This document shows, piece after piece, positions 5,891 through 58,880 of a DNA stretch of 59,938 nucleotides. The stretch is taken from positions 1 to 59,938 of the forward strand of contig CAINFC010000016.1 of the NCBI GenBank assembly GCA_903847975.1, written 5' to 3'. The translations under genes and the position numbers were made by a program. This DNA comes from an uncultured Acidobacteriota bacterium. Its GTDB lineage: Bacteria > Acidobacteriota > UBA6911 > CAINFC01. Numbering within the stretch: the stretch's first letter is position 1; each line of letters starts with the position of its first letter. A model generated the notes under the pieces. It was not told where the DNA came from and searched no databases. It saw only the letters and a list, made by a program, of their open reading frames with translations.

Positions 5891-6055
5891 CTGGCGCTTC
5901 GCATCGACGAAACGATAAAGCGGGTCCGCCCGGACAGCTGGCGCGGCGTTCAGCCGCGGGAACAGGTGATCAAAAGAGCGCTGTATGACATCCTGAAAGA
6001 CATTGCCGAGGTGGAGCGCATATTCCCCATCATCAAGGCCCAGAAGGAATACTGA
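5891..6055 (+). pseudogene. hsdR: C-terminal remnant of type I restriction subunit HsdR
   Basis: About 50 codons remain, reading LRIDETIKRVRPDSWRGVQP and then REQVIKRALYDILKD and VERIFPIIKAQKEY, the conserved C-terminal tail of HsdR motor/endonuclease subunits (normally about 1000 residues). The frame is open back to 5771, but that part is AT-rich junction sequence without homology. The stop overlaps the ATG of the next gene by one base, preserving the usual hsdR-ygjP coupling. No hsdM or hsdS is present. Confidence 0.8.
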
Positions 6056-6771
6056 TGGCGACGCAGCTCAAGCTGGGAGAAATTTCCGATGAGGTTGTAA
6101 AGAAGGACATCAAGAATGTCCACTTAAGCGTTTATCCGCCCGATGGCCGGGTCCGCATTGCGGCTCCTTCCCGTATGAGCCTGGATACCATCCGGCTCTT
6201 TGCGATTTCCAGGTTGGGCTGGATCAAACAGCAGCAGAAAGAGCTTCGCGAGCAGGAACGGGAGACAGCCAGGGAAAACCTGGACCGGGAAAGCCACTTT
6301 CTATGGGGAAAGCGCTACCTGCTCCAGGTAATGGAGTCAGAGGAGCCGCCTTCCATCGAATTAAAGCACAGCCGGATATGGTTCCGAATACGCCCGGGAA
6401 CGCCTGCCTGGAGGAAGCAGGAAATCATGGAGGAATGGTATCGGGAGCGGATCAAACAGGCCGCTTCGCCATTGATCGCCCAATGGGAAGCGACGCTGGG
6501 AGTGAAAGTGGAAAAGGTCTTTGTGCAGCGCATGAAGACCCGCTGGGGAAGCTGCAATGCGCAAACAGGCAACGTACGCTTAAATACGGAACTGGCCAAG
6601 AAGCCCCCGGAGTGCCTGGAATACATCATCGTCCATGAAATGACCCATCTCCTGGAGCCGACCCACAAACCCCGTTTTATAGCGCTCCTGGATCGAGTCC
6701 TGCCCAAGTGGCAATTCTACCGGGACCTGCTGAACCGCCTCCCGGTCCGGCACGAGGATTGGGTCTATTGA
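6055..6771 (+). CDS. YgjP-like zinc metallopeptidase (DUF45/SprT-like)
   Basis: A 238-residue protein of the YgjP/DUF45 family. Visible are the substrate-region motif RMKTRWGSCNAQTGNVRLNT (residues about 161-180) and the zinc site IIVHEMTHLLEPTHKPRF (HExxH plus a third His), so the catalytic set is complete. These proteins commonly sit directly downstream of hsdR in type I restriction loci, as here, where the start overlaps the hsdR stop (TGATG). The exact substrate is unknown for most members. The rest of the restriction locus is gone, so the native promoter is probably lost. Confidence 0.85.
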   Translation: MATQLKLGEISDEVVKKDIKNVHLSVYPPDGRVRIAAPSRMSLDTIRLFAISRLGWIKQQQKELREQERETARENLDRESHFLWGKRYLLQVMESEEPPSIELKHSRIWFRIRPGTPAWRKQEIMEEWYRERIKQAASPLIAQWEATLGVKVEKVFVQRMKTRWGSCNAQTGNVRLNTELAKKPPECLEYIIVHEMTHLLEPTHKPRFIALLDRVLPKWQFYRDLLNRLPVRHEDWVY

Positions 6772-7119: not shown

Positions 7120-7232
7120 GAATAGCCAAGGGCCAAAGGCCCGGCACATAATAGCCTGGGGTGAAGCGCAGCGCAGCCCCAGGTATGTGGTTCCGATATA
7201 CATGAGGGCTGAAAGCCCGAGACATTAGCCTT
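7120..7232. repeat. Three-hairpin intergenic repeat, copy 1
   Basis: Three hairpins follow each other: GGGCCAAAGGCCC, a central CCTGGGG...CCCCAGG with a GAAGCGCAGCGCAG loop region, and GGGCTGAAAGCCC. The same architecture (small, large, small hairpin with AA or TTC-type loops) recurs at the right end of the window in inverted order. Such elements are abundant between genes in acidobacterial and some planctomycete genomes; their function is unknown to me. Confidence 0.65.
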
Positions 7233-37072: not shown

Positions 37073-37150
37073 CGGGGCGTAGCGCAGCCCGGTCAGCGCG
37101 CCTGCCTTGGGCGCAGGAGGCCGGCGGTTCAAATCCGCCCGCCCCGACCA
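37073..37150 (+). tRNA. tRNA-Pro (anticodon UGG)
   Basis: A complete cloverleaf: acceptor CGGGGCG (37073-37079) pairs with CGCCCCG (37140-37146); anticodon stem CCTGC/GCAGG encloses loop CTTGGGC with anticodon TGG; T-arm GGCGG-TTCAAAT-CCGCC. Discriminator A and an encoded CCA end the gene. TRNA genes are frequent integration sites, but no integrase or duplicated 3' end is seen next to it. Confidence 0.95.
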
Positions 37151-46786: not shown

Positions 46787-48322
46787 GTGAGGAAACCGTT
46801 CCCTGTCTGCTTTTTTGCAGCCCTCCTGCTTCTGCTGGCCGGAGGCTGGGCAGCGGCACAGCAAGCCGCCTTGACCATTCTGCATACCAACGACGCGCAC
46901 AGCCACCTGCTGCCTTTCAGCTACCCGGCCGTGGCTCCGCCGGGATCCCCGCTGGAAGGCCTGACCGTCCGCCAGAACATCGGCGGCATCGCCCGGCGGA
47001 GTACCCTGGTGAAGCGGATCCGCGAGGAACAGAGCCGGCGCGGCATACCGGTCTGGGTGGTCGACGCCGGCGACACGACGGACGGCACGCCCTTTTCGAC
47101 GGAATATCGTGGCCAGGCCGACGCGGAGGCGATGAACGCCCTGGGCTACGACTTCGGCACGCTGGGCAATCATGAATTCAATATGCCGCTGGAGCCGTTC
47201 AAAAAGTATCTGGGCCTGGTCCGGTTTCCTCTGCTCGGCGCCAACGTCAAAGAGATTTCCGGCGGGAAAGGGCTGCTGGCCGATTCCCTCATCCGCCCGC
47301 TCGGCCGGCTGAAAATAGGGCTTTTCGGGATCATCACCCGGGAGACCAGGGATTACCCGGCGGCCAAGGGGAACTTTCTTTTTGAAGACGAGATCGAAAC
47401 GGCCGGCAGAATGGTAAAAGCCCTGCGCCCCAAGGCGGATATCGTGGTGGCCGTTTCCCACGCCGGCGAAGAGCTGGATCAGGCCATTGCCCGGAAAGTC
47501 GAAGGCATCGATGTGATCATCGGCGGCCACTCCCACTCGCGCATGCCGATCGGGGAATTTGTCTGGAGGTCCGAAGAGCTGATTGCCGATCAGGTCAATG
47601 GAACCGTGATCGTACAGGCCCATCAGTGGGGCGGCGAGCTGGGCCGGCTGGACCTTCTTTTCTCCCGCGATAAAAAGCGGACCTGGCACGTGGACCGCTT
47701 CCGGGCAAGGCTTATTCCCGTCACCCCGGATATTGAGGAGGATGCGGCCGTGGCCGCGGTGGTGGACCGCTACTGGAAACCGATCGCCGGGCGCTACGGA
47801 GAGGTGGTCGGGCAGGCTTTGGATGATTTTGCCGTTCGCGGGCAGGACTTGGCCAATTACAACCTGTTTGCCGACCTGGTGCGGGAAGCCGTGGGAACGG
47901 AGATCGATTTTGAGAACCTGGGCGGTATCCGCGCCCCGCTCATCAAAGGCAGCATCACCATGGCCGACATCATCAACGCGGATCCTTTCGACAACGAGGT
48001 GGTTACCTTTACCGTAACCGGGCGCCAGATCCGGGAAATCCTGCGCCGCACGCGCCCTGCCGTATCGGGTATCCGCTACCGGATGGAAAACCGGGAGGTC
48101 GTCGAACTGACCATCAACGGCCAGCCGGTCGACGAGACCCGGGTCTACACCGGATCGACCAACTCTTACTTTGCCGGCCGCTCGATGAAGGGGATCGAGG
48201 TTCAATCCACCGGGAAGATGCGCCGGGAGACGGTCAAAGAGATGATCCGTAAAAAAGGGAAGGTCAAGCCGGTCTACGACGATCGCCGGGTCATCCTGGA
48301 TCCCGGAAACAGCAACTACTGA
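46787..48322 (+). CDS. Exported 5'-nucleotidase/UshA-family phosphoesterase
   Basis: 511 residues starting at GTG 46787 behind TTGGGGAGA. Signal peptide (FFAALLLLLAGGWAAAQQA). The metallophosphoesterase domain has ILHTNDAHSHLLPF, WVVDAGDTTDG, FGTLGNHEFNM, AVSHAGEELD and IGGHSHSRMP, a complete dimetal site. The C-terminal 5'-nucleotidase domain has YNLFADLVREAVGTEIDFEN and LGGIRAPLIKG for nucleotide binding. It would dephosphorylate nucleotides outside the cytoplasmic membrane, releasing nucleoside and phosphate. Divergent from the GH92 gene. Confidence 0.92.
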   Translation: MRKPFPVCFFAALLLLLAGGWAAAQQAALTILHTNDAHSHLLPFSYPAVAPPGSPLEGLTVRQNIGGIARRSTLVKRIREEQSRRGIPVWVVDAGDTTDGTPFSTEYRGQADAEAMNALGYDFGTLGNHEFNMPLEPFKKYLGLVRFPLLGANVKEISGGKGLLADSLIRPLGRLKIGLFGIITRETRDYPAAKGNFLFEDEIETAGRMVKALRPKADIVVAVSHAGEELDQAIARKVEGIDVIIGGHSHSRMPIGEFVWRSEELIADQVNGTVIVQAHQWGGELGRLDLLFSRDKKRTWHVDRFRARLIPVTPDIEEDAAVAAVVDRYWKPIAGRYGEVVGQALDDFAVRGQDLANYNLFADLVREAVGTEIDFENLGGIRAPLIKGSITMADIINADPFDNEVVTFTVTGRQIREILRRTRPAVSGIRYRMENREVVELTINGQPVDETRVYTGSTNSYFAGRSMKGIEVQSTGKMRRETVKEMIRKKGKVKPVYDDRRVILDPGNSNY

Positions 48323-49747: not shown

Positions 49748-49778
49748 AAAAGGCGTGGTGTTATCCACGCCTTTTTTT
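49748..49778 (+). terminator. Rho-independent terminator
   Basis: AAAAGGCGTGG and CCACGCCTTTT form a perfect stem with a 6-base loop, continuing into a T7 run. It ends the transcript of the small secreted protein. Confidence 0.9.
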
Positions 49779-49819: not shown

Positions 49820-49849
49820 TTGACTCTTTGACCCATCCATGCTTACAAT
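49820..49849 (+). promoter_or_regulatory. Possible sigma-70 promoter of the DUF4956-CotH cluster
   Basis: TTGACT (49820-49825) and TACAAT (49844-49849) are 18 bases apart. The first gene starts at 49966, leaving a leader of about 110 bases. No PHO-box pattern is recognised. Confidence 0.45.
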
Positions 49850-49965: not shown

Positions 49966-50796
49966 ATGGAGCTTAGAGATAAACCTTGGGAAAAATTGCA
50001 GCGCCTCATGGGAATCCGCTCGCAGTCCAGCCTGCAGCTCGCCGGGTGCGCCGCCGCCGTTTACCTGCTTCTGATGTGGGCCATCTGGCGCTGGCCCGGC
50101 ATTCTGACCTCCCAGGCGATTCCCGTCTTTCAGGCCCTTCCCTGGAATACGTCCGGCCATCCTTCCGTCTATCCTCTATTTGAGATCACCAAGCTGGTAA
50201 TGGCCTCCCTCCTGGGCATGGTCACCACCCTGATCCATAAGCACCTGCACCGCGAGAAGCTGCTCAGCCGCTCCCTGGAGCAGGCCCAGATACTGCTCTG
50301 CATTTCCGGAGCGATGATGATGGTCATTATCGGCGACTCCCTACCGAGAGCCTTCGGGATTGCCGGCGCGGCGGCCATCATCCGTTTCCGGACGCCGGTG
50401 GAGGACCCCAAGGACACCACGCTGCTCTTCCTGGTCCTCGGCCTGGGAATGGCTTGCGGCCTGGGTGCTTTCAGCGTGGCCGGACTGGCCTGCTTTTTTC
50501 TCTGTACCATTCTTTTTCTTCTGGACCATATCGGAGAGCAGAAGCCCCGCCCGATGGTTCTGGAACTGGTAGCCAACGGCTCCGAGTTCCCGAGCACCCA
50601 CGTGCATAATATTTTTTCCGCTTACGGGACGGTGTTCGAACCTCGCGAAATGACGCACGGGGAAGAAGCCATGATAACCTACAACGTTGTACTAGCTCCC
50701 AACACACCATTGGATCACATGAGCGACCAGCTGATCAGCGGTGGCTTTTCCGGCATCAAATCCGTGGTCTGGCATGCCCCGAAAAAGAGCGGATAG
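49966..50796 (+). CDS. DUF4956 membrane protein
   Basis: 276 residues. Hydrophobic helices at about 24-42, 68-88, 105-122 and 150-185, then a cytoplasmic domain of about 90 residues. The DUF4956 signature is clear: GDSLPRAFGIAGAAAIIRFR, TPVEDPKDTTLLFLVLGLGM. These proteins often neighbour CotH-fold proteins and VTC-type polyphosphate polymerases; their function is not known. Here it heads a cluster with PLD-like, porin, CotH and phosphatase genes, the next start 4 bases after its stop. Ribosome site GGGGAGG. Confidence 0.88.
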   Translation: MELRDKPWEKLQRLMGIRSQSSLQLAGCAAAVYLLLMWAIWRWPGILTSQAIPVFQALPWNTSGHPSVYPLFEITKLVMASLLGMVTTLIHKHLHREKLLSRSLEQAQILLCISGAMMMVIIGDSLPRAFGIAGAAAIIRFRTPVEDPKDTTLLFLVLGLGMACGLGAFSVAGLACFFLCTILFLLDHIGEQKPRPMVLELVANGSEFPSTHVHNIFSAYGTVFEPREMTHGEEAMITYNVVLAPNTPLDHMSDQLISGGFSGIKSVVWHAPKKSG

Positions 50797-50800
50797 GCCG

Positions 50801-51769
50801 ATGGCGGATTGCAGCAAGCCCGAAAAGAAAAAGAAAGCCGGCCCCATCCCGCAGGAACAGGTGGTACTGGAGCCCCCGGAGCGGCTGAAGGCGGTTATCC
50901 GTCTGATCCGCATGGCACAGCGGCGGCTGCTGATTTCCATGTTCCGCTGCAAAGAAAAAGCCGTCCTGGAGGAGCTGGCCGCCGCCTTGCGGCGCAAGGT
51001 GCAGGTGCACGCTCTGGTTACCCCGCGCGCCAAGGGCGGTAAGCTGCGCCTGAACGAGCTCGGCGCCCTGCTGGAAGGGATGGGCGCCAAGGTGATGCGC
51101 TATCCCGACCAGGTGGTCAAATACCACGCCAAGTACATGGTGGTCGACGACGGGCCCGGCATGGTTGCCTCCCTGAATTTCACCAAGAAATGTTTTCGCC
51201 GGACCAGCGACTTCCTGCAGATCACCTACGACCCGGCGGTGGTTTCCGGGCTGATCCGCCTTTTCGAATCCGACTGCAGCCGGGTGCAAACCCTGCTGCC
51301 GCCCGACCTCAGCGAGCGTCTGATTGTCGGCCCGGATCGCGCCCGGGTGCAGATTACCGACTTCCTGCAATCGGCACGACGCCGCATCCGCATCCTGGAT
51401 CCGAAAGTCACCGATGCCGACGTGCTGATGCTGCTGGAGGCCAAAAGGGCCGACGGCGTTGAGGTGCAGATCAATCAAAAACGGGAGCTGGGCAGCCTGA
51501 CCAGCCACGGCAAGCTGATCCTGGTGGATGATTCCGCCGCCCTTTTCGGCAGCATCTCCCTGTGCACCCTGAGCCTGGATTTTCGCCGGGAGCTGGCCAT
51601 AAAAGTGCAAGATCCCTATTGCGTCGAGCAGCTGGTCGGCTATTTCGATTTCCTGGCCAACGGCGGTCCCCCTGCGCCCGAAGGGCCGGCGCAGGAAGTC
51701 GAGCCGCAGGATTCCCGAAAAAAGACGATACGTAAGGATGTCGGGAAGAAAAAGGAGAAACGCTCTTGA
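50801..51769 (+). CDS. Phospholipase-D-like protein
   Basis: 322 residues, cytoplasmic by sequence. Two HKD-type motifs: VKYHAKYMVVDD...ASLNF (about 106-128) and TSHGKLILVDD...GSISL (about 235-257). Both His and Lys pairs are present, so a phosphodiesterase site can form across the pseudo-dimer. PLD-fold proteins act on phospholipids or nucleic acids or make phosphatidyl transfers; the lack of a signal peptide and of neighbours in lipid synthesis leaves the substrate open. The C-terminus is Lys-rich. Its stop overlaps the TTG start of the porin. Confidence 0.85.
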   Translation: MADCSKPEKKKKAGPIPQEQVVLEPPERLKAVIRLIRMAQRRLLISMFRCKEKAVLEELAAALRRKVQVHALVTPRAKGGKLRLNELGALLEGMGAKVMRYPDQVVKYHAKYMVVDDGPGMVASLNFTKKCFRRTSDFLQITYDPAVVSGLIRLFESDCSRVQTLLPPDLSERLIVGPDRARVQITDFLQSARRRIRILDPKVTDADVLMLLEAKRADGVEVQINQKRELGSLTSHGKLILVDDSAALFGSISLCTLSLDFRRELAIKVQDPYCVEQLVGYFDFLANGGPPAPEGPAQEVEPQDSRKKTIRKDVGKKKEKRS

Positions 51770-53109
51770 AGACCGCCCCTGACACGGAAGACGCCCATCC
51801 GGGCCGTAGGATGCCCGGCAGGCGCGCGCGCTCGATCCGATGGTTCCTGGCTCTTTTTCTCCTTACCCTTTCCGGGCCGATCCTGGCAGAAGACAGCTCC
51901 GAGGCGGAAAAGCAACCGCAGGCCCAAAAGGATGCCAACGAATTCCGCTTTCTGCTGCGCAAGCCTCCTTCCCTGCGGTTCGGAAAACTTTTTCGTATCG
52001 ATTTCCGGGCCAAATTCCAGGGAGTGTTCCGGGGCTTTTCGCCACCGGTGACCACCGACGAGGGCCTGTTCGAATTCCGCAGGAAGCGAGTCAGCATCGA
52101 GGGGACCTTCCTGAAGCATTTCGAATACGAGGTGGAATCGGAGCTGCGCAGGGAGGATCACTGGAAGGATGTCAATCTGAACTTCCGGTATTTTCGGAAT
52201 TTCCAGATCAAGGCCGGGAAGTTCAAGCTGCCGTTCGGCATGGAGCAGACCACCGGCACCATGAGTCTCGATTTTGCCTACCGCTCCCTGCTCAGCGACA
52301 ACCTGACCCCATCCCGTGATCGCGGCATCATGGCCCACGGGCGGTTTTGGGAGCGCGGGCTGAATTATGAAGGAGGTATTTTTGTCCGGGACGGGGACAA
52401 TTCTCTTTCCAAGCGCAGCACCGGTGCGGAAAGAACTTTTGCCGGCCGTGTCTCCGGAACGCCGCTGCGGCTGGTTGCGGCACCGGATTATCTGCGGGCC
52501 ATGGAATTCGGTCTGGCCATGACTTCCGGAACAGTACCGGAGGGGCTCAAAGGGCTGCGCGGGCAGACCATCGTCACCAGCGAGGCCTTCTTTCCGGAGT
52601 TCTATGTCCACGGCCAGCGGCGAAGGCTGGGCCTGCAGTGGGACTGGAGCCCGGGCCCCTTTTCCCTGAAAAGCGAGTGGGTCCAATATAACGACCAGCG
52701 CCGCGGCCAGAGCATCCGCGGCACGGATCTGTGCGACCTGATCTCCCGCGGCTGGTATGCCGCCGGCACCTGGGTGATTACCGGCGAGTCCAAAGCCGGC
52801 GGCGTGGAGCCCAAAAAGCCGTTCCTGGAAAAGGGAGGGCTGGGCGCCGTGGAACTGGCCGCCCGGTTCGAGGTGCTACGCTTCGGCAGTTCGGAGCACA
52901 TCGGCCTGGCCTCCCGCAGCCCCCGGGCCGCCAATATACTGGAAAACAGCAACCGCGCCTGGACGGTGGGAATCAACTGGTACCTGAACCGCTGGGTCAA
53001 AATTCAAACCAACGGAATCCGGGAAAAACTGGAAGACCCCCAGCGCAGCCCGATTCCGGGCAAAACCCTTTTTTATACCTGGCTCTGTCATCTGCAGTTC
53101 GTCATGTAA
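51766..53109 (+). CDS. Phosphate-selective porin O/P family outer-membrane protein
   Basis: 447 residues starting at TTG 51766. After a long basic N-terminus there is a signal peptide (IRWFLALFLLTLSGPILAED). The mature part is a beta barrel with alternating strands and Arg/Lys-rich constrictions; FEFRRKRVSIEGTFLKHFEY, IKAGKFKLPFGMEQ and ALYRSLLSD-like FAYRSLLSDNLTPSRDRGIM match the OprO/OprP family. It ends in an aromatic-rich strand but the last residue is Met. OprP-type channels pass phosphate or polyphosphate, though many relatives have other cargo. It is between PLD-like and CotH genes in one operon. Confidence 0.87.
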   Translation: MKTAPDTEDAHPGRRMPGRRARSIRWFLALFLLTLSGPILAEDSSEAEKQPQAQKDANEFRFLLRKPPSLRFGKLFRIDFRAKFQGVFRGFSPPVTTDEGLFEFRRKRVSIEGTFLKHFEYEVESELRREDHWKDVNLNFRYFRNFQIKAGKFKLPFGMEQTTGTMSLDFAYRSLLSDNLTPSRDRGIMAHGRFWERGLNYEGGIFVRDGDNSLSKRSTGAERTFAGRVSGTPLRLVAAPDYLRAMEFGLAMTSGTVPEGLKGLRGQTIVTSEAFFPEFYVHGQRRRLGLQWDWSPGPFSLKSEWVQYNDQRRGQSIRGTDLCDLISRGWYAAGTWVITGESKAGGVEPKKPFLEKGGLGAVELAARFEVLRFGSSEHIGLASRSPRAANILENSNRAWTVGINWYLNRWVKIQTNGIREKLEDPQRSPIPGKTLFYTWLCHLQFVM

Positions 53110-53133
53110 CCGATCCGATTGCGAGGGGTGAGC

Positions 53134-55821
53134 ATGCGTCTTATCGGCAAACTTGTTCCGATTTGTTTTTTGGCCCTTCTGGCCGCCGGGGGCTCCCTCC
53201 GGGCCCAGACCACCGACGATTTTTTCAATCCCGGCGCCCTGCAGGAAATCCGCCTGGAAATCTTTCCGGCCGACTGGCAGAAGCTGAAGGCCAATTTCCT
53301 GGACAATACTTATTACCCCTGCAATCTGCAGTGGAAATACCAGGGAAAATACAAGATCATCGAGAATGTCGGTATCCGCTCCCGGGGAACGGGCAGCCGG
53401 AGCGGAGTCAAGCCGGGCCTGCGGGTCGACTTCAACCGCTACGAAGCGGGCCAGCTGTTCCTGGGCCTGAAATCCTTCGTGCTGCGCAACAACATCCAGG
53501 ACCCTTCCATGCTTCGCGAGCGGATTGCCATGCGCTTTTTCCAGTGGATGGAAATTCCCGGCTCGCGGGAAGCTCACACCCGGCTCTACGTCAACGACGA
53601 GTACATCGGCCTATACTCCATGGTGGAATCCGTGGACAAGGATTTTTTGTCTCGAAATTACGGGGAGAATGACGGCTACCTTTACAAATACGACTACCCG
53701 GTCGACGCCCAGCCTTACTATTTCGGCTACCGCGGCAGCGACCCCGCTCTTTATTCTCCCCTGCCCTTTCAGCCGGAAACCCACGAAACCGATCCGGACC
53801 CCAAGCCGCTGGAGGCGATGATCCGCGTCATCAACCAGGCCACCGACAGCGAATTCCCCACCCGCATCGCCGAATACCTGGATCTGAAATACCTCATGAC
53901 CTATATCGCCATCGAGAACTTCCTGGCCGAGCTGGACGGCTTCCTGGGGGAATGGGGCATGAACAATTACTACCTGTATCGGTTCGAAAAGAAAAACCTG
54001 TCCACGCTCATTCCCTGGGACCGCAGCCTGTCGTTTTCCAACTATTTCACCCACGGCATCTGGCATAATATCAGCAACGTCTCCGCCGACAAGCAGAATG
54101 TTCTGGTCCGCCGCGCCCTGGCCATTCCCGAGTTGCGCAATACGTACCTGGAAACCTTGAACCGCTGCACCCGCATCGCCGGAAAATCGGGACAGTACCT
54201 GGAACAGGAGCTGAACTTCGAATTTAATCAGGTTCGCCAGGCGGCTTATGAGGATCCCAACAAACAGTGCTACGATTCGCAAGGAAATATGAAACCTTGC
54301 ACCAACGCGGATTTTGACGCCTCCATCGAGACCCTCCGGAACTTCATGCGCAACCGCCCGAACTACATCCTGTCGGCGGTTCCCAAGGAGATTACGGCCG
54401 TCAGCCAGCGTCCTTATTCCTTTCCGGACCGCGGCGGGATCTCCATGGAAACCGCCGGCCTGGGTTCCGGGACCACCGTGGGCTACGCGCGAATCCTGCC
54501 GGCCAACGGATCCACCACCCCCGGCGGCCTGGCAATTTTCGGTCTTCGCCAGAACAGCGTACTGGTAACGGAAGCGGGCGTTCCCGCCTCCCCCCTGGTC
54601 CGCGAAGGCCGGATCTATGTGGAAGTGGGCGGGGGCGTAAATACCGGCGTGGCCATCGCCAATCCGAACGCCCAGGCAGCTTCCATTTCCTTCCTGTTCG
54701 TCGACAGCAGTGGAAAAGAAGCGGGATCGGGCACCGTGACGGTACCCGCCAACGGGCAGCTGGCTCGCTTTGTCAACGAGGCCCCCTTCGGCGGCGGGAA
54801 CCTGTCGACCGGCACCCTGACGCTCCGCTCCAGCCTGCCGGTGGGAATCCGCTCGCTGCGCGGGCTGCTCAACGAACGGTCCGAATTCCTGATCACCACC
54901 CTGCCGGTGGCCGAATTGACTGCCTCCGTCGGGGAGATGGTGATCCTGCCGCATTTTGCGGATGGGGGCGGATGGAAAACCCAGGTCATCCTGGTCAATC
55001 CTTCCGAGACGACCATCAGCGGCACCGTTCAGTTCGTAGGCCAGGGGAGCGCATCCGCTGCAGGACGGCCGGTAACCGTGACCATCGGCGGGCAAACGGC
55101 CGACACCTTCAACTACTCCATTCCCCCGGGCAGCTCCCGCGCCCTGCAGACCGCGGGCAGCGCGTCCGAGGTTCTGTCCGGATCGGTCCGGGTGCAACCT
55201 TTCTCGGCCCAGGCTACTCCATCGGTGATGGAAGTTTTTTCCTTCCGCCGCAGCGGCATTACCGTCAGCGAAGCGGGAGTGTCTGCCACCAAAGCCGGGG
55301 CTGCTTTTCGCCTCTATGCCGAGGTTTCCGGGAATCTCCTCGGCGGAGAGGCCGGCGCCATCCAGACCGGATTGGCCATCGCCAATCCGTCGGGCAGCTC
55401 CGCGAACGTCAGCCTGGACCTCACCTATCTTTCCGGTAAATCCACCGGGCTGAAGGCGAGCGTAACCGTCCCGGCCAACGGGCAGGTCGCCCAGTTCCTG
55501 GGGCAGCTTCCCGGCTTCAGTAGCCTTCCGAACTCGTTCCAGGGTATACTTAGAGTGTCGGCTGCCGCCGGTTCCGGGGTTTCCGTGGTTGGTCTCCGGG
55601 GCAGGCAGAACGAACGAGGAGATTTTCTGATTACCACCACGCCGCCAAGCGAGGAAGGGGTCAAAGCCGGCAATAGCGAAATGCTTTTCCCCCAGCTGGC
55701 AGACGGAGGTGGTTATACGACCCAATTGATTCTGTTCAGCGGATCATCCGGTCAATCGGCCGCCGGGGATCTTCGATTTCTTTCACAGGGAGGCCAGCCT
55801 CTGGGTTTGGTATTATGGTAA
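53134..55821 (+). CDS. Secreted CotH-kinase-fold protein with tandem acidobacterial repeat domains
   Basis: 895 residues from the ATG at 53134 (ribosome site GAGGGGTGA). Signal peptide to about residue 24. The CotH kinase-like region spans about 30-410: LEIFPADWQKLKANFLDN, GIRSRGTGSR, ELDGFLGEWGMNNYYLYRFE and LIPWDRSLSFSNYF. The usual WDxD metal motif is WDRS, so one acidic ligand may be missing. The C-terminal half has two copies of a repeat (about 440-650 and 690-890), each with TGVAIANP, VTVPANGQ, NER..FLITT and LPHFADGGG or FPQLADGGG. CotH enzymes phosphorylate secreted proteins on Ser. The stop overlaps the phosphatase start. Confidence 0.9.
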   Translation: MRLIGKLVPICFLALLAAGGSLRAQTTDDFFNPGALQEIRLEIFPADWQKLKANFLDNTYYPCNLQWKYQGKYKIIENVGIRSRGTGSRSGVKPGLRVDFNRYEAGQLFLGLKSFVLRNNIQDPSMLRERIAMRFFQWMEIPGSREAHTRLYVNDEYIGLYSMVESVDKDFLSRNYGENDGYLYKYDYPVDAQPYYFGYRGSDPALYSPLPFQPETHETDPDPKPLEAMIRVINQATDSEFPTRIAEYLDLKYLMTYIAIENFLAELDGFLGEWGMNNYYLYRFEKKNLSTLIPWDRSLSFSNYFTHGIWHNISNVSADKQNVLVRRALAIPELRNTYLETLNRCTRIAGKSGQYLEQELNFEFNQVRQAAYEDPNKQCYDSQGNMKPCTNADFDASIETLRNFMRNRPNYILSAVPKEITAVSQRPYSFPDRGGISMETAGLGSGTTVGYARILPANGSTTPGGLAIFGLRQNSVLVTEAGVPASPLVREGRIYVEVGGGVNTGVAIANPNAQAASISFLFVDSSGKEAGSGTVTVPANGQLARFVNEAPFGGGNLSTGTLTLRSSLPVGIRSLRGLLNERSEFLITTLPVAELTASVGEMVILPHFADGGGWKTQVILVNPSETTISGTVQFVGQGSASAAGRPVTVTIGGQTADTFNYSIPPGSSRALQTAGSASEVLSGSVRVQPFSAQATPSVMEVFSFRRSGITVSEAGVSATKAGAAFRLYAEVSGNLLGGEAGAIQTGLAIANPSGSSANVSLDLTYLSGKSTGLKASVTVPANGQVAQFLGQLPGFSSLPNSFQGILRVSAAAGSGVSVVGLRGRQNERGDFLITTTPPSEEGVKAGNSEMLFPQLADGGGYTTQLILFSGSSGQSAAGDLRFLSQGGQPLGLVLW

Positions 55822-57359
55822 ACAGAAGAGGCTTTCTGAAGAACCTGAGTGCCGGAGGAGCGGGAGCGATTCTTCCTTCCCGCCTGTTCGCGAGTTCGCC
55901 TTCCCGGACCCTGCTGCGTTATCCCTACATTCAGGACGTGCGCGGCACCAGTGCCGTCATCCTTTGGACCACGCTGGAGGATGGTGCCGGCCTGGTCGTA
56001 TTTACGCGGGACGGCAAGGAATATTTCTATGCGCCCGCCAAAAAGCGCTATTTCCCGACGGACGAGACCCGCCTGCCCAATCCTTTCTACCAGTATCGGG
56101 CCGACCTGACCAACCTGTTGCCGGACAGCAACTACCAATGCCAGGTTTTGATGGATGATCTGAACCTGGTCGAAAAGGACGCGGTTTATTTTCATACCAG
56201 GCCGGCCGGACCCTTCCGATTCCTGGCCTACGGGGATTCCGGCATGGGAACCGACGGCCAACTGGAGGTCGCCCGGCTCATGGGCCGCGAGGCGGTGGAC
56301 CTGGTGATTCACACCGGGGATATAGCCTACATGAACGGCACCTATGAGGAGTTTGAAACCCGGCACTTCAAGTACTACTGGGATCAGATGCGCCATGTGC
56401 CCTATTACCCCAGCTTCGGAAATCATGAGTACTACACGGATGGAGGCAATCCGTGTCTGGCAGTGCATGCCGTCCCCTGGGAACTGGTTCCGGAGGAAGA
56501 CCGCGGACGCTACTACTCCTTCGACTGGGGCAACGTTCATTTCATCGCCCTGGATACGAATTTACCTCTGGAAAAGGCCACCACCGACATTCGCACGGGC
56601 AAAATGCTCGACTGGCTGGAAAGCGACCTGCAGAGCACGAGCCAGTTCTGGCGCATCCCGTTTTTTCACCACCCGCCTTTTGCCACCGGGCCGAATGTCA
56701 ACGACCCGCACTCCATCCTGGTCCGGCGCTCCGTTGTTCCCATCCTGGACCGGCATGAGGTGGAAGCGGTTTTCGACGGACACGAGCACAGCTACCAGCG
56801 CAGCCGGCCGATCCGCAACAATTCCTTGGCCGATGCCGGGGTCGGAACCGTCTATATCACCACCGGGGGCGGAGGCGCCTGGCTTTACCGTGTGGATCCC
56901 TCTGCCCTGCTGGCCACAGGAGAGTCCTGTTACCACTATGTGCGAGCCGAAGTCAACGGCTATTGCATGACCCTGGAGACCATCCGCTCTGACGGCAAAA
57001 TCATCGACCGCGCGGTTCTGGAACCCAAGCCCACCCTTTCTTCAATCACCCGTCTCTCTTCCCTTTCCTCCGAGCCCAATGCCGCCTCGGAACTCGGCGA
57101 CCCGATCCGCATCCACGGCAGACACCTGGCTGCCATGGAATCCGCAGCTACGGCCGCTCCTCTTCCAACCCGGCTCTCGGAGGTGGTGGTGGATAGGAAG
57201 GGACAGGCCTTGGGCCTGTGGAAGGTATCCAGCCGGGAAATCATCGCCGTTCTGCCTTTCGGCACCACCGGAGATGTGGAAATCCGGGTGACCACACCGA
57301 ACGGATCCGCCACAGCGGTTGTGGAAATTCCTCGAAGACCCGGGACCCGGCGCCGCTAA
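55815..57359 (+). CDS. Tat-exported purple-acid-type metallophosphatase with TIG-like C-terminus
   Basis: 514 residues. Tat signal NRRGFLKNLSAGGAGAILPS. An N-terminal fibronectin-like domain (about 35-130) is followed by a metallophosphoesterase: FLAYGDSGMG, VIHTGDIAYMNG, PSFGNHEYYTD, FFHHPPFATG, DGHEHSYQRSRP, all metal ligands present. Residues about 430-505 form a TIG/IPT-like domain (DPIRIHGRHLA, IIAVLPFGTTGDVEIRVTTP). Purple acid phosphatases hydrolyse phosphomonoesters. The ATG overlaps the CotH stop, so the two are coupled and could act as opposing kinase and phosphatase outside the cell. Confidence 0.9.
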   Translation: MVNRRGFLKNLSAGGAGAILPSRLFASSPSRTLLRYPYIQDVRGTSAVILWTTLEDGAGLVVFTRDGKEYFYAPAKKRYFPTDETRLPNPFYQYRADLTNLLPDSNYQCQVLMDDLNLVEKDAVYFHTRPAGPFRFLAYGDSGMGTDGQLEVARLMGREAVDLVIHTGDIAYMNGTYEEFETRHFKYYWDQMRHVPYYPSFGNHEYYTDGGNPCLAVHAVPWELVPEEDRGRYYSFDWGNVHFIALDTNLPLEKATTDIRTGKMLDWLESDLQSTSQFWRIPFFHHPPFATGPNVNDPHSILVRRSVVPILDRHEVEAVFDGHEHSYQRSRPIRNNSLADAGVGTVYITTGGGGAWLYRVDPSALLATGESCYHYVRAEVNGYCMTLETIRSDGKIIDRAVLEPKPTLSSITRLSSLSSEPNAASELGDPIRIHGRHLAAMESAATAAPLPTRLSEVVVDRKGQALGLWKVSSREIIAVLPFGTTGDVEIRVTTPNGSATAVVEIPRRPGTRRR

Positions 57360-57382: not shown

Positions 57383-57988
57383 TCAGGCAGGCAACCGGGC
57401 CGGAAGCCGCGACGGAATCTTTCGGCAGACCCCTTGCGCCTCCTTTTCCACCAGGTAGGAAATAACTTTTTGCTGCAGATCTTTGCGGGTTCCGCTGCAG
57501 GAGTTCTTGCCAACCATCAGGCCGCCAAACTCCACGAATCCGTCCATGACCTTGATCTTGATCTTGGCGGCGGTGTCCCGGGACTCACGAATGCGGTAGG
57601 TGCGGGCGGCGGCAGGAGCGAAGCGGAACAGCGATTTCAGCCAGGGTGCCGGCAGGCCGGCGGCTTGCCCGAACGCCATGGCCGTTTCGATATAAGGCGC
57701 AGCAATGACAAATTGGCCCTCGCTGAGCGCCGGCCGGATCTGCCACTGCAGCCGAAAGGAGAGGTCGGCGGCATAAAGGAGCAGCAGCGTGCGGGGGGAG
57801 GGAGCCTGCAGGGGATCGGCCCCCAGGCTCAGCTCGTAAAAAAGGCTGGAGGCATCCCAGGCGCTGATCCCGCCGCCGGCCTTGCGGCAAAAGTGATTTT
57901 TCAGCCGCTCGGCGCTTTCCTGCAAAGCGCGGCCGGAGCAGCCTTCCACAGCGATCAGTTGGCCGGCCGGAAGAAGATCAGCGGGCAC
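57383..57988 (-). CDS. Degenerate thymidylate-kinase-like protein
   Basis: About 201 residues from the GTG at 57988 (GGAGAAG ribosome site); an ATG at 58006 is possible. The fold follows thymidylate kinase: IAVEGCSGRALQESAERL where the P-loop FEGxDGSGKST should be, LLLLYAADLSFRLQWQIRPA for the TMP-site helix, and FVIAAPYIETAMAFGQAAGL where the DRY motif should be. P-loop Lys and catalytic Asp-Arg are gone. It overlaps the intact kinase-like gene and is probably its non-catalytic partner. Confidence 0.7.
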   Translation of the reverse strand: MPADLLPAGQLIAVEGCSGRALQESAERLKNHFCRKAGGGISAWDASSLFYELSLGADPLQAPSPRTLLLLYAADLSFRLQWQIRPALSEGQFVIAAPYIETAMAFGQAAGLPAPWLKSLFRFAPAAARTYRIRESRDTAAKIKIKVMDGFVEFGGLMVGKNSCSGTRKDLQQKVISYLVEKEAQGVCRKIPSRLPARLPA

Positions 57989-58778
57989 GGGGCTTCTCCA
58001 GGACATGCGGATTGTTGCGCAGCCAATCGGAAACCGCCTCTTCGTTCCACTCCGCCCAGGGCCGGCGCTGGCATTGGCGGAAAAGCAACCGGATGCTCTG
58101 GTGCTGCTCGTAGATGGTTTTTTCGGCGTTCACCGAAACGAACTGGAAAATAGTGTTCAGCGCCTCGTATTCCCGGAGAACCCGCTGGATGAAGTGGGTA
58201 TAGCTGGTGATGGGATCCTCCAGATTGGTGATGTCCTGGCCGGCTTCGTAAAACTTGGGAGAGCGGGTGGCAAACATCCGCTTGGTGGATGTTTCCGCGG
58301 AAACCGAAAAATAAAAGACCAGGTCCGGCCACAGAATCGGCGAATAGGTATTCAGCAGCCAGTTCAGAGGCATGCCGCGGGCCCCGTCGCGGGCCAGGGC
58401 GGTAAAAAACCAGCGGTCGGCAATGACCGTCTTTCCGGCCCAGAGGGCCGGAAGCACCACGGTTTCCATGCGGTGGCGCAAATCGGCGGCATGCAGCAGG
58501 GAAAACTCCTCCGGGCGCAGGGAGTGGGCGGCCTTGCGCGCTTTGATCAGCGGCTTGATCAGCGGAGAGGAGTTCCACTTGGTGGAAACCACTGGGTAGC
58601 CGGCGGCTTTCAGCCATTCGCGGAACAGCTTGCGCTGCGTGGATTTTCCGGATCCGTCCAGCCCTTCGAAGGTGATCAGCAGTCCACGCCTGGCTTCCTG
58701 CCGGCGTATCACCTCCAGCATGGCTTCCGAACAGCCCGTGCTCCGGGCTTTCTTCTTCTTTTTTTCTTTGCCCTTCAA
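57978..58778 (-). CDS. Thymidylate-kinase-like nucleotide kinase
   Basis: About 266 residues from the TTG at 58778, which has a GGAGAGG ribosome site; the frame runs to 58814. After a Lys-rich tail come the P-loop LLITFEGLDGSGKSTQRKLF, helix FSLLHAADLRHRMETVVLPA, and DRW in KTVIADRWFFTALARDG (DRY in classical Tmk). A LID-like region (RSPKFYEAGQDITNLE) and a 60-residue C-terminal extension follow. Classical Tmk makes dTDP from dTMP and is about 210 residues, so this longer form may use another substrate or act with the degenerate paralogue whose gene overlaps its 3' end. Confidence 0.82.
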   Translation of the reverse strand: MKGKEKKKKKARSTGCSEAMLEVIRRQEARRGLLITFEGLDGSGKSTQRKLFREWLKAAGYPVVSTKWNSSPLIKPLIKARKAAHSLRPEEFSLLHAADLRHRMETVVLPALWAGKTVIADRWFFTALARDGARGMPLNWLLNTYSPILWPDLVFYFSVSAETSTKRMFATRSPKFYEAGQDITNLEDPITSYTHFIQRVLREYEALNTIFQFVSVNAEKTIYEQHQSIRLLFRQCQRRPWAEWNEEAVSDWLRNNPHVLEKPRAR

Positions 58779-58880
58779 GACCTCTCCTGCCTGATTCGTG
58801 CAATTGTAGCACATCTTCCTTTATGAAAAAGAAATCGGAAGGGCCCGCCCAAACGACAGGACCGCTCTGCTCCCCGTTTT

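Follow-up and report, generated by a model that had tools for sequence, protein, structure and literature searches.

A gene group of VTC, DUF4956 and CotH has been noted beside Pel clusters (PMC7112168), and a text search returned a single paper naming both CotH and DUF4956, in the context of VTC. The yeast VTC complex is reported to couple polyphosphate synthesis to translocation (PMC9911596). For the Bacillus subtilis spore-coat kinase CotH, the D228 and D251 mutants were inactive, and the source of its ATP was stated to be an unanswered question (PMC7821199). In published papers PPK1 is described as PLD-like and PPK2 as thymidylate-kinase-like, and a PPK1 H435A/H592A double mutant served as catalytically inactive enzyme (PMC6537752). 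Our search of the non-subscription literature returned no paper testing a bacterial DUF4956 protein and no description of PLD or PPK1 versions of the locus or of the thymidylate-kinase-like (TMK-like) pair.

Here, a gene cluster was analysed in the window, which is the whole stretch of 59,938 nucleotides from an uncultured Acidobacteriota bacterium. As in the VTC-DUF4956-CotH group, DUF4956 and CotH are kept in one cluster, and in a relative (L037) the porin is present as well. However, VTC is absent here, a PPK1-like PLD protein stands in its slot, a phosphatase and a TMK-like pair are added, and the conserved set contains no Pel genes. The likeness to the yeast complex (PMC9911596), which combines a cytosolic polymerase with a membrane part, would be an analogy only; no VTC domain is found here, and translocation is presumed. 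Our main reading, to which we give a probability of about 0.55, is that we see here the Acidobacteriota version of a bacterial polyphosphate polymerase-DUF4956-secreted kinase locus, in which a polyphosphate-type chain made by the PLD protein feeds a secreted kinase/phosphatase pair.

Organization of the locus

Five nearly gapless genes on the plus strand at 49966-57359 encode members of the Pfam families DUF4956, PLDc_2, Porin_O_P, CotH and Metallophos, all above their cut-offs. The cluster of these five families, proposed in an earlier note on this DNA, proved to be real. Its extent had been drawn too short, as two further conserved genes were missed: a convergent TMK-like pair (57383-58814) lies on the minus strand beyond the phosphatase gene, and with this pair counted the cluster reaches 58814. 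The features are as follows.

49820..49849, plus strand: candidate sigma-70-like promoter TTGACT-18-TACAAT (consensus match only; 5 in the region against 3.0 expected)
49966..50796, plus strand: DUF4956 membrane protein, 276 aa (Pfam PF16316, 36.4 bits, cut-off 30.6)
50801..51769, plus strand: PLD-fold protein, PPK1-like, with two HKD motifs, 322 aa (Pfam PLDc_2, 90.9 bits; co-linear PPK1 match; signature residues)
51811..53109, plus strand: Porin_O_P-family outer-membrane porin carrying a signal peptide (Pfam PF07396, 112.6 bits; PDB relatives)
53134..55821, plus strand: secreted CotH-family kinase with C-terminal repeat region (Pfam PF08757, 181.7 bits; 5jd9 alignment; invariant columns)
55815..57359, plus strand: Tat-exported metallophosphatase of the purple-acid-phosphatase type (Pfam PF00149, 47.2 bits; TAT signal model; motifs; PDB relatives)
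57383..58006, minus strand: TMKB, thymidylate-kinase-like pseudo-enzyme (alignment: P-loop Lys lost, AP in place of DR)
57978..58814, minus strand: TMKA, thymidylate-kinase-like P-loop enzyme (NCBIfam TIGR00041, 91.8 bits; GxxGxGK[ST] and DR)

The DUF4956 stop codon (50794-50796) is followed by the PLD ATG at 50801, and the PLD gene ends with TGA at 51767-51769. The porin gene, for which an alternative TTG start at 51766 is possible, stops at 53107-53109, ahead of the CotH ATG at 53134 with its Shine-Dalgarno sequence GAGGGG. A terminator-like hairpin (49757-49771) precedes the candidate promoter. Upstream of the cluster, on the same strand, the window encodes a UshA-like secreted 5'-nucleotidase (46787-48322); its membership in the system was unsupported, with no relative in the DUF4956-survey loci L036-L071, the sole loci tested. 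An Acido-Lenti-1 RNA (7129-7183; 40.5 bits, at the gathering score) and a tRNA-Pro (37073-37150) were also seen in the window.

The host genome (8.13 Mb, 326 contigs, 99% complete) carries one CotH and one DUF4956 gene in a genome-wide search, as well as a separate full PPK1 adjoining a gene that reads as Ppx. The VTC domain (PF09359) was absent from the whole of it, as the earlier note had claimed for the cluster.

The gene set is conserved in Acidobacteriota

GTDB genomes were searched with a census profile (A1) built from nine PLD proteins, which gave 80 loci, nearly all in Acidobacteriota. Thirty of these, termed type A, encode a PLD protein with ∼41-52% identity to that of the window. Here DUF4956 was found in 22, porin in 24, CotH in 18, the TMK-like pair in 19-20 and phosphatase in 17 loci; when only the 18 long-flanked loci of this type are considered, the corresponding counts were 12, 14, 13, 14 and 10. 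By comparison, among 25 survey loci with DUF4956/CotH that lack PLD, none had TMK and two had the phosphatase. The five genes form a conserved system of Acidobacteriota and not a chance neighbourhood.

In type B (47 loci, PLD ∼30% identical to the window protein) a related PLD and a phosphatase are paired with a different secreted kinase-like family, C10 (35 loci with C10, 33 with phosphatase, 9 with DUF4956). One type B locus, L118, belongs to the cultivable Terriglobus albidus. Porin, CotH and TMK were found in none of the 47 type B census loci; at two survey loci (L055 and L064) a TMK pair does accompany a type B PLD and C10. Three survey loci duplicate census loci (L053 = L090, L056 = L096, L058 = L137). 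C10 was seen in L045, L055, L064, L105, L111 and about 40 other loci, beside PLD, PPK1 or DUF4956. Residues K116, E120, D201, D228 and G230 are invariant in C10, and its motif order K-E-NNWD-DxG is the order expected of a kinase. The idea that C10 is a remote CotH was rejected: hhalign, Pfam and PDB sequences gave no support, neither Pfam nor the PDB yielded any relative, and only the order K-E-D-DxG suggests a kinase. A secreted protein of ∼190 aa without Pfam match was observed between PLD and phosphatase in L101 (1524-2075), L105 (10074-10652) and some 26 further loci of type B.

The PLD protein is related to PPK1

No signal peptide was seen on the window PLD protein, which contains two HxK(x)4D motifs (H109/K111/D116 and H236/K238/D243). 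E. coli PPK1 was matched with an E value of 1.4e-13 at residues 350 to 636, through both PLD-fold domains in the same order, and comparison of the PLD family with PPK1 by hhalign gave 98.5% over 260 columns. The family profile scored PPK1 proteins of related genomes with up to 57.7 bits, co-linearly across both domains and the linker, whereas other PLD proteins of the same genomes reached at most 38.3 bits, in one domain only. In this ranking PPK1 stood above the other PLD proteins, apart from two exceptions close to the low end of the PPK1 scores.

Eight residues (R49, H109, N126, P178, R182, H236, R262 and E264) do not vary across 85 PLD proteins and recur in nearly every aligned PPK1, including the Pro and Arg of the linker. 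In the alignment R49, H109, H236, R262 and E264 are equivalent to R375, H435, H592, R621 and E623 of E. coli PPK1 (chain index plus one). We take R375, R621 and E623 to be residues with roles in PPK1. In type B proteins the second motif is HxR, as in PPK1.

Unlike PPK1, the 322-aa window protein has no match to the N-terminal and middle domains (PF13089 and PF02503). The HKD aspartates, lost in PPK1, are intact in the PLD proteins, and PPK1 R405 and Y468 are not conserved in them. On its own, the window protein scores 16.6 bits against Pfam PP_kinase_C_1, under the cut-off of 25.7, while a distant relative (L206) passes this PPK1 C-terminal domain with 34.4 bits; the PP_kinase_C_1 match was trusted only after profile, residue and synteny tests agreed.

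Because the additional PPK1 domains are missing, the Pfam score is below the cut-off and the aspartates are kept, the PLD protein could be hydrolytic. It would then be a hydrolase of the nuclease or phospholipase type that acts with the secreted kinase in some unrelated process, of the envelope or of nucleic acids, and its likeness to PPK1 would reflect the PLD superfamily only, which we consider unlikely. Both HKD motifs are indeed complete, the top PDB matches were the two-HKD phospholipase 7e0m and the Nuc endonuclease 1byr, which scored at least as high as PPK1, and NCBIfam DrmC and NucT matched weakly, far under cut-off. However, neither of the two structures aligned co-linearly across both domains, and PPK1 was the one PDB match that did so through both domains and the linker. 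A cardiolipin-synthase-like protein lacks three Arg common to PLD and PPK1, and full-length PPK1 and VTC fill the same slot at other DUF4956 loci.

Exchange of polymerase-type genes at DUF4956 loci

An even sample of 199 genomes from the phylum yielded 33 DUF4956 loci for comparison. The polymerase-type neighbour was VTC in 13, PLD in 8 and full-length PPK1 in 3 loci, and 9 had none; two of these genes never occurred together at any of the 33 loci. L037 has the order CotH-porin-VTC-DUF4956, which is the window set with VTC where PLD stands. Since VTC is, in addition, absent from the host genome, the earlier statement that PLD replaces VTC holds directly. The accompanying view that a polyphosphate-type polymerase is lacking was not supported: the PLD protein is itself PPK1-like, and full-length PPK1 (PF13089 and PF02503 present) occupies the PLD slot in L045, L046 and L049. 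In L045 and L049 a single compact operon is made up of PPK1, C10 and DUF4956, with abutting genes in L045. L046 has C10, PPK1 and DUF4956, and a small metallophosphatase-like gene (5959-6603, recognized by eye) is located between C10 and PPK1. As judged from alignments and gene order, the PLD protein is a PPK1 homologue that occupies the VTC slot.

The DUF4956 protein of the window has hydrophobic segments at residues 22-41, 104-127 and 150-191 and does not contain the N-terminal STAS domain of relatives; such a domain was seen on DUF4956 in L056 (Pfam) and, by eye, in L053 and L058. In a DUF4956 tree all type A proteins, including that of the window, fall in one group (100/99 support). Type A, PPK1 and type B rows cluster together (99/97) to the exclusion of every VTC row, and the deeper order is unsure because of long branches among the VTC rows. 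VTC and DUF4956 matched in the same three of 14 control genomes.

A thymidylate-kinase-like pair

The P-loop GxxGxGK[ST] and the DR motif of TMKA are invariant in 20/20 sequences. In type A loci TMKB is a conserved neighbour of CotH; its P-loop lysine is gone, and in these loci AP stands where DR is expected. By its motifs TMKA is apparently active, and TMKB is a conserved pseudo-enzyme. TMKA was rejected as the housekeeping dTMP kinase; a canonical Tmk with TREPGGT is located on contig C82. A restriction of the pair to PLD was rejected as well, as pairs were found in many genomes without PLD, and it was through these that the link to Ppx and CHAD, a polyphosphate-binding module (PMC6537752), was found. 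Of 15 fetched TMK-pair loci without PLD, 10 contain Ppx-GppA and 9 contain CHAD. Tandem TMK-like pairs were seen adjoining Ppx-GppA and CHAD genes in L187, L189, L191-L194 and L198-L201. The TMK/pseudo-TMK pair beside Ppx-GppA/CHAD is probably a polyphosphate-linked module outside this system.

PPK1 reactions are reversible, and the PLD/TMK part might consume polyphosphate for nucleotide phosphorylation, with porin and phosphatase bringing phosphate and the nucleotides being charged for other uses. The company of TMK pairs with Ppx and CHAD would fit this explanation, as would the resemblance of PPK2 to thymidylate kinase (PMC3680246). However, TMKA matches thymidylate kinases and gave no PPK2 match, and VTC, a synthetic enzyme, swaps with PLD in the same slot; we therefore regard consumption as improbable.

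Secreted kinase, phosphatase and porin

The CotH protein matches the Bacillus CotH sequence of 5jd9. Its catalytic Asp273 and Asp301 (with the TTG at 53119 counted as residue 1) do not vary within the set. In the alignment they fall on two Asp of the Bacillus chain 23 positions apart, a spacing shared by D228 and D251 of B. subtilis. With both equivalents kept, the domain does not appear inactive, which agrees with the kinase role proposed earlier. Unlike Bacillus CotH, the protein is predicted to be secreted, belongs to a lineage not known to sporulate and has a long C-terminal repeat region. The motif reads IPWDRS (54009-54035), with Ser in place of the second Asp of WDxD, as also in L053, L073, L081 and L087; most other relatives have Asp. 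For the C-terminal repeat region (54400-55818), 36 further matching stretches were seen in the host genome. The region is, by its sequence matches, a widely reused domain. The last repeat looked cut, and a truncation of CotH by the phosphatase gene was considered; it was rejected, as paralogues in the same genome stop at the same point (three stretches compared).

All metallophosphatase motifs (GDSG, GDIAY, GNHE, HHP and GHEH) are present in the phosphatase, and its PDB relatives are purple acid phosphatases. The CotH and phosphatase genes overlap in ATGGTAA (55815-55821), from which a coupling of kinase and phosphatase had been proposed. This overlap is not conserved, and the coupling is not general because most relatives have the phosphatase gene in another place: upstream in divergent orientation, inserted between the porin and CotH genes, or downstream after a gap.

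The porin belongs to the same Pfam family as Pseudomonas OprO and OprP, and its C-terminal third matches both (E values of 5.6e-10 and 4.2e-9, respectively). It is, however, distant from them, and its selectivity is presumed from the family.

The earlier note had proposed an envelope system that pairs a kinase for secreted proteins with an exported phosphatase and that imports phosphate. The conserved set and the kept motifs bear out the first part. Phosphate import, suggested by the porin family only, was not borne out: no PhoB box was found in the window with up to three mismatches allowed, a search for which Acidobacteriota boxes may differ. That phosphate import through the porin and reversible phosphorylation of secreted proteins account for the cluster with no phosphate polymer at all is very improbable. 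CotH, phosphatase and the OprO/P-type porin are conserved together, as such a system would have it, but the conserved set includes no inner-membrane phosphate transporter, and the PPK1-like PLD, DUF4956 and the polyphosphate-linked TMK pair would be left unexplained. A chance packing of unrelated genes, for which only the variable phosphatase position speaks, is already refuted by the synteny counts, with the set recurring in about 30 Acidobacteriota loci, and TMK in 14/18 long-flank type A loci against 0/25 DUF4956/CotH loci without PLD.

Discussion

The variant of a polyphosphate polymerase-DUF4956-secreted kinase locus that we favour would work as follows. A cytoplasmic PLD-fold enzyme, kin to the catalytic half of PPK1, stands in for the VTC polymerase and would transfer phosphate via H109 and H236, most likely building a polyphosphate-type chain. 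By analogy with yeast VTC, where synthesis is coupled to membrane passage, it may act together with the DUF4956 membrane protein, so that the chain would supply phosphate at the outer side of the inner membrane. There, the secreted CotH kinase would use it as donor and phosphorylate envelope proteins, and the Tat-exported phosphatase would undo this phosphorylation or recover phosphate. Passage of phosphate or short polyphosphate across the outer membrane may be provided by the OprO/OprP-type porin. TMKA and TMKB would probably supply or recycle nucleotide, a role that we infer, like the preceding steps, in this case from the presence of Ppx and CHAD beside such pairs at other loci.

Further points count against this reading: the host already has a full PPK1, DUF4956 is missing at 6/18 long-flank type A loci, and 9/33 DUF4956 loci have no polymerase-type neighbour. 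Conversely, VTC, PPK1 and the PPK1-like PLD exchange at DUF4956 loci while a secreted kinase or kinase-like partner is often kept, and therefore polyphosphate is pointed to as the shared element. This pattern of genes suggests that polyphosphate may feed phosphorylation outside the cell. A wider proposal, which we put forward as tentative and rather doubtful, is that a stripped-down PPK1 of two PLD domains only constitutes a third kind of bacterial polyphosphate polymerase and, with DUF4956, exports polyphosphate as donor for the secreted kinases CotH or C10.

Where secreted kinases get their phosphate is an open question, and this locus makes it testable with few genes. For DUF4956 a concrete hypothesis is at hand, namely that it is a partner or channel for polyphosphate. 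The analysis also brings to light a polyphosphate enzyme that may be new, a TMK/pseudo-TMK pair with links to polyphosphate, and a secreted, kinase-like family that has no name yet.
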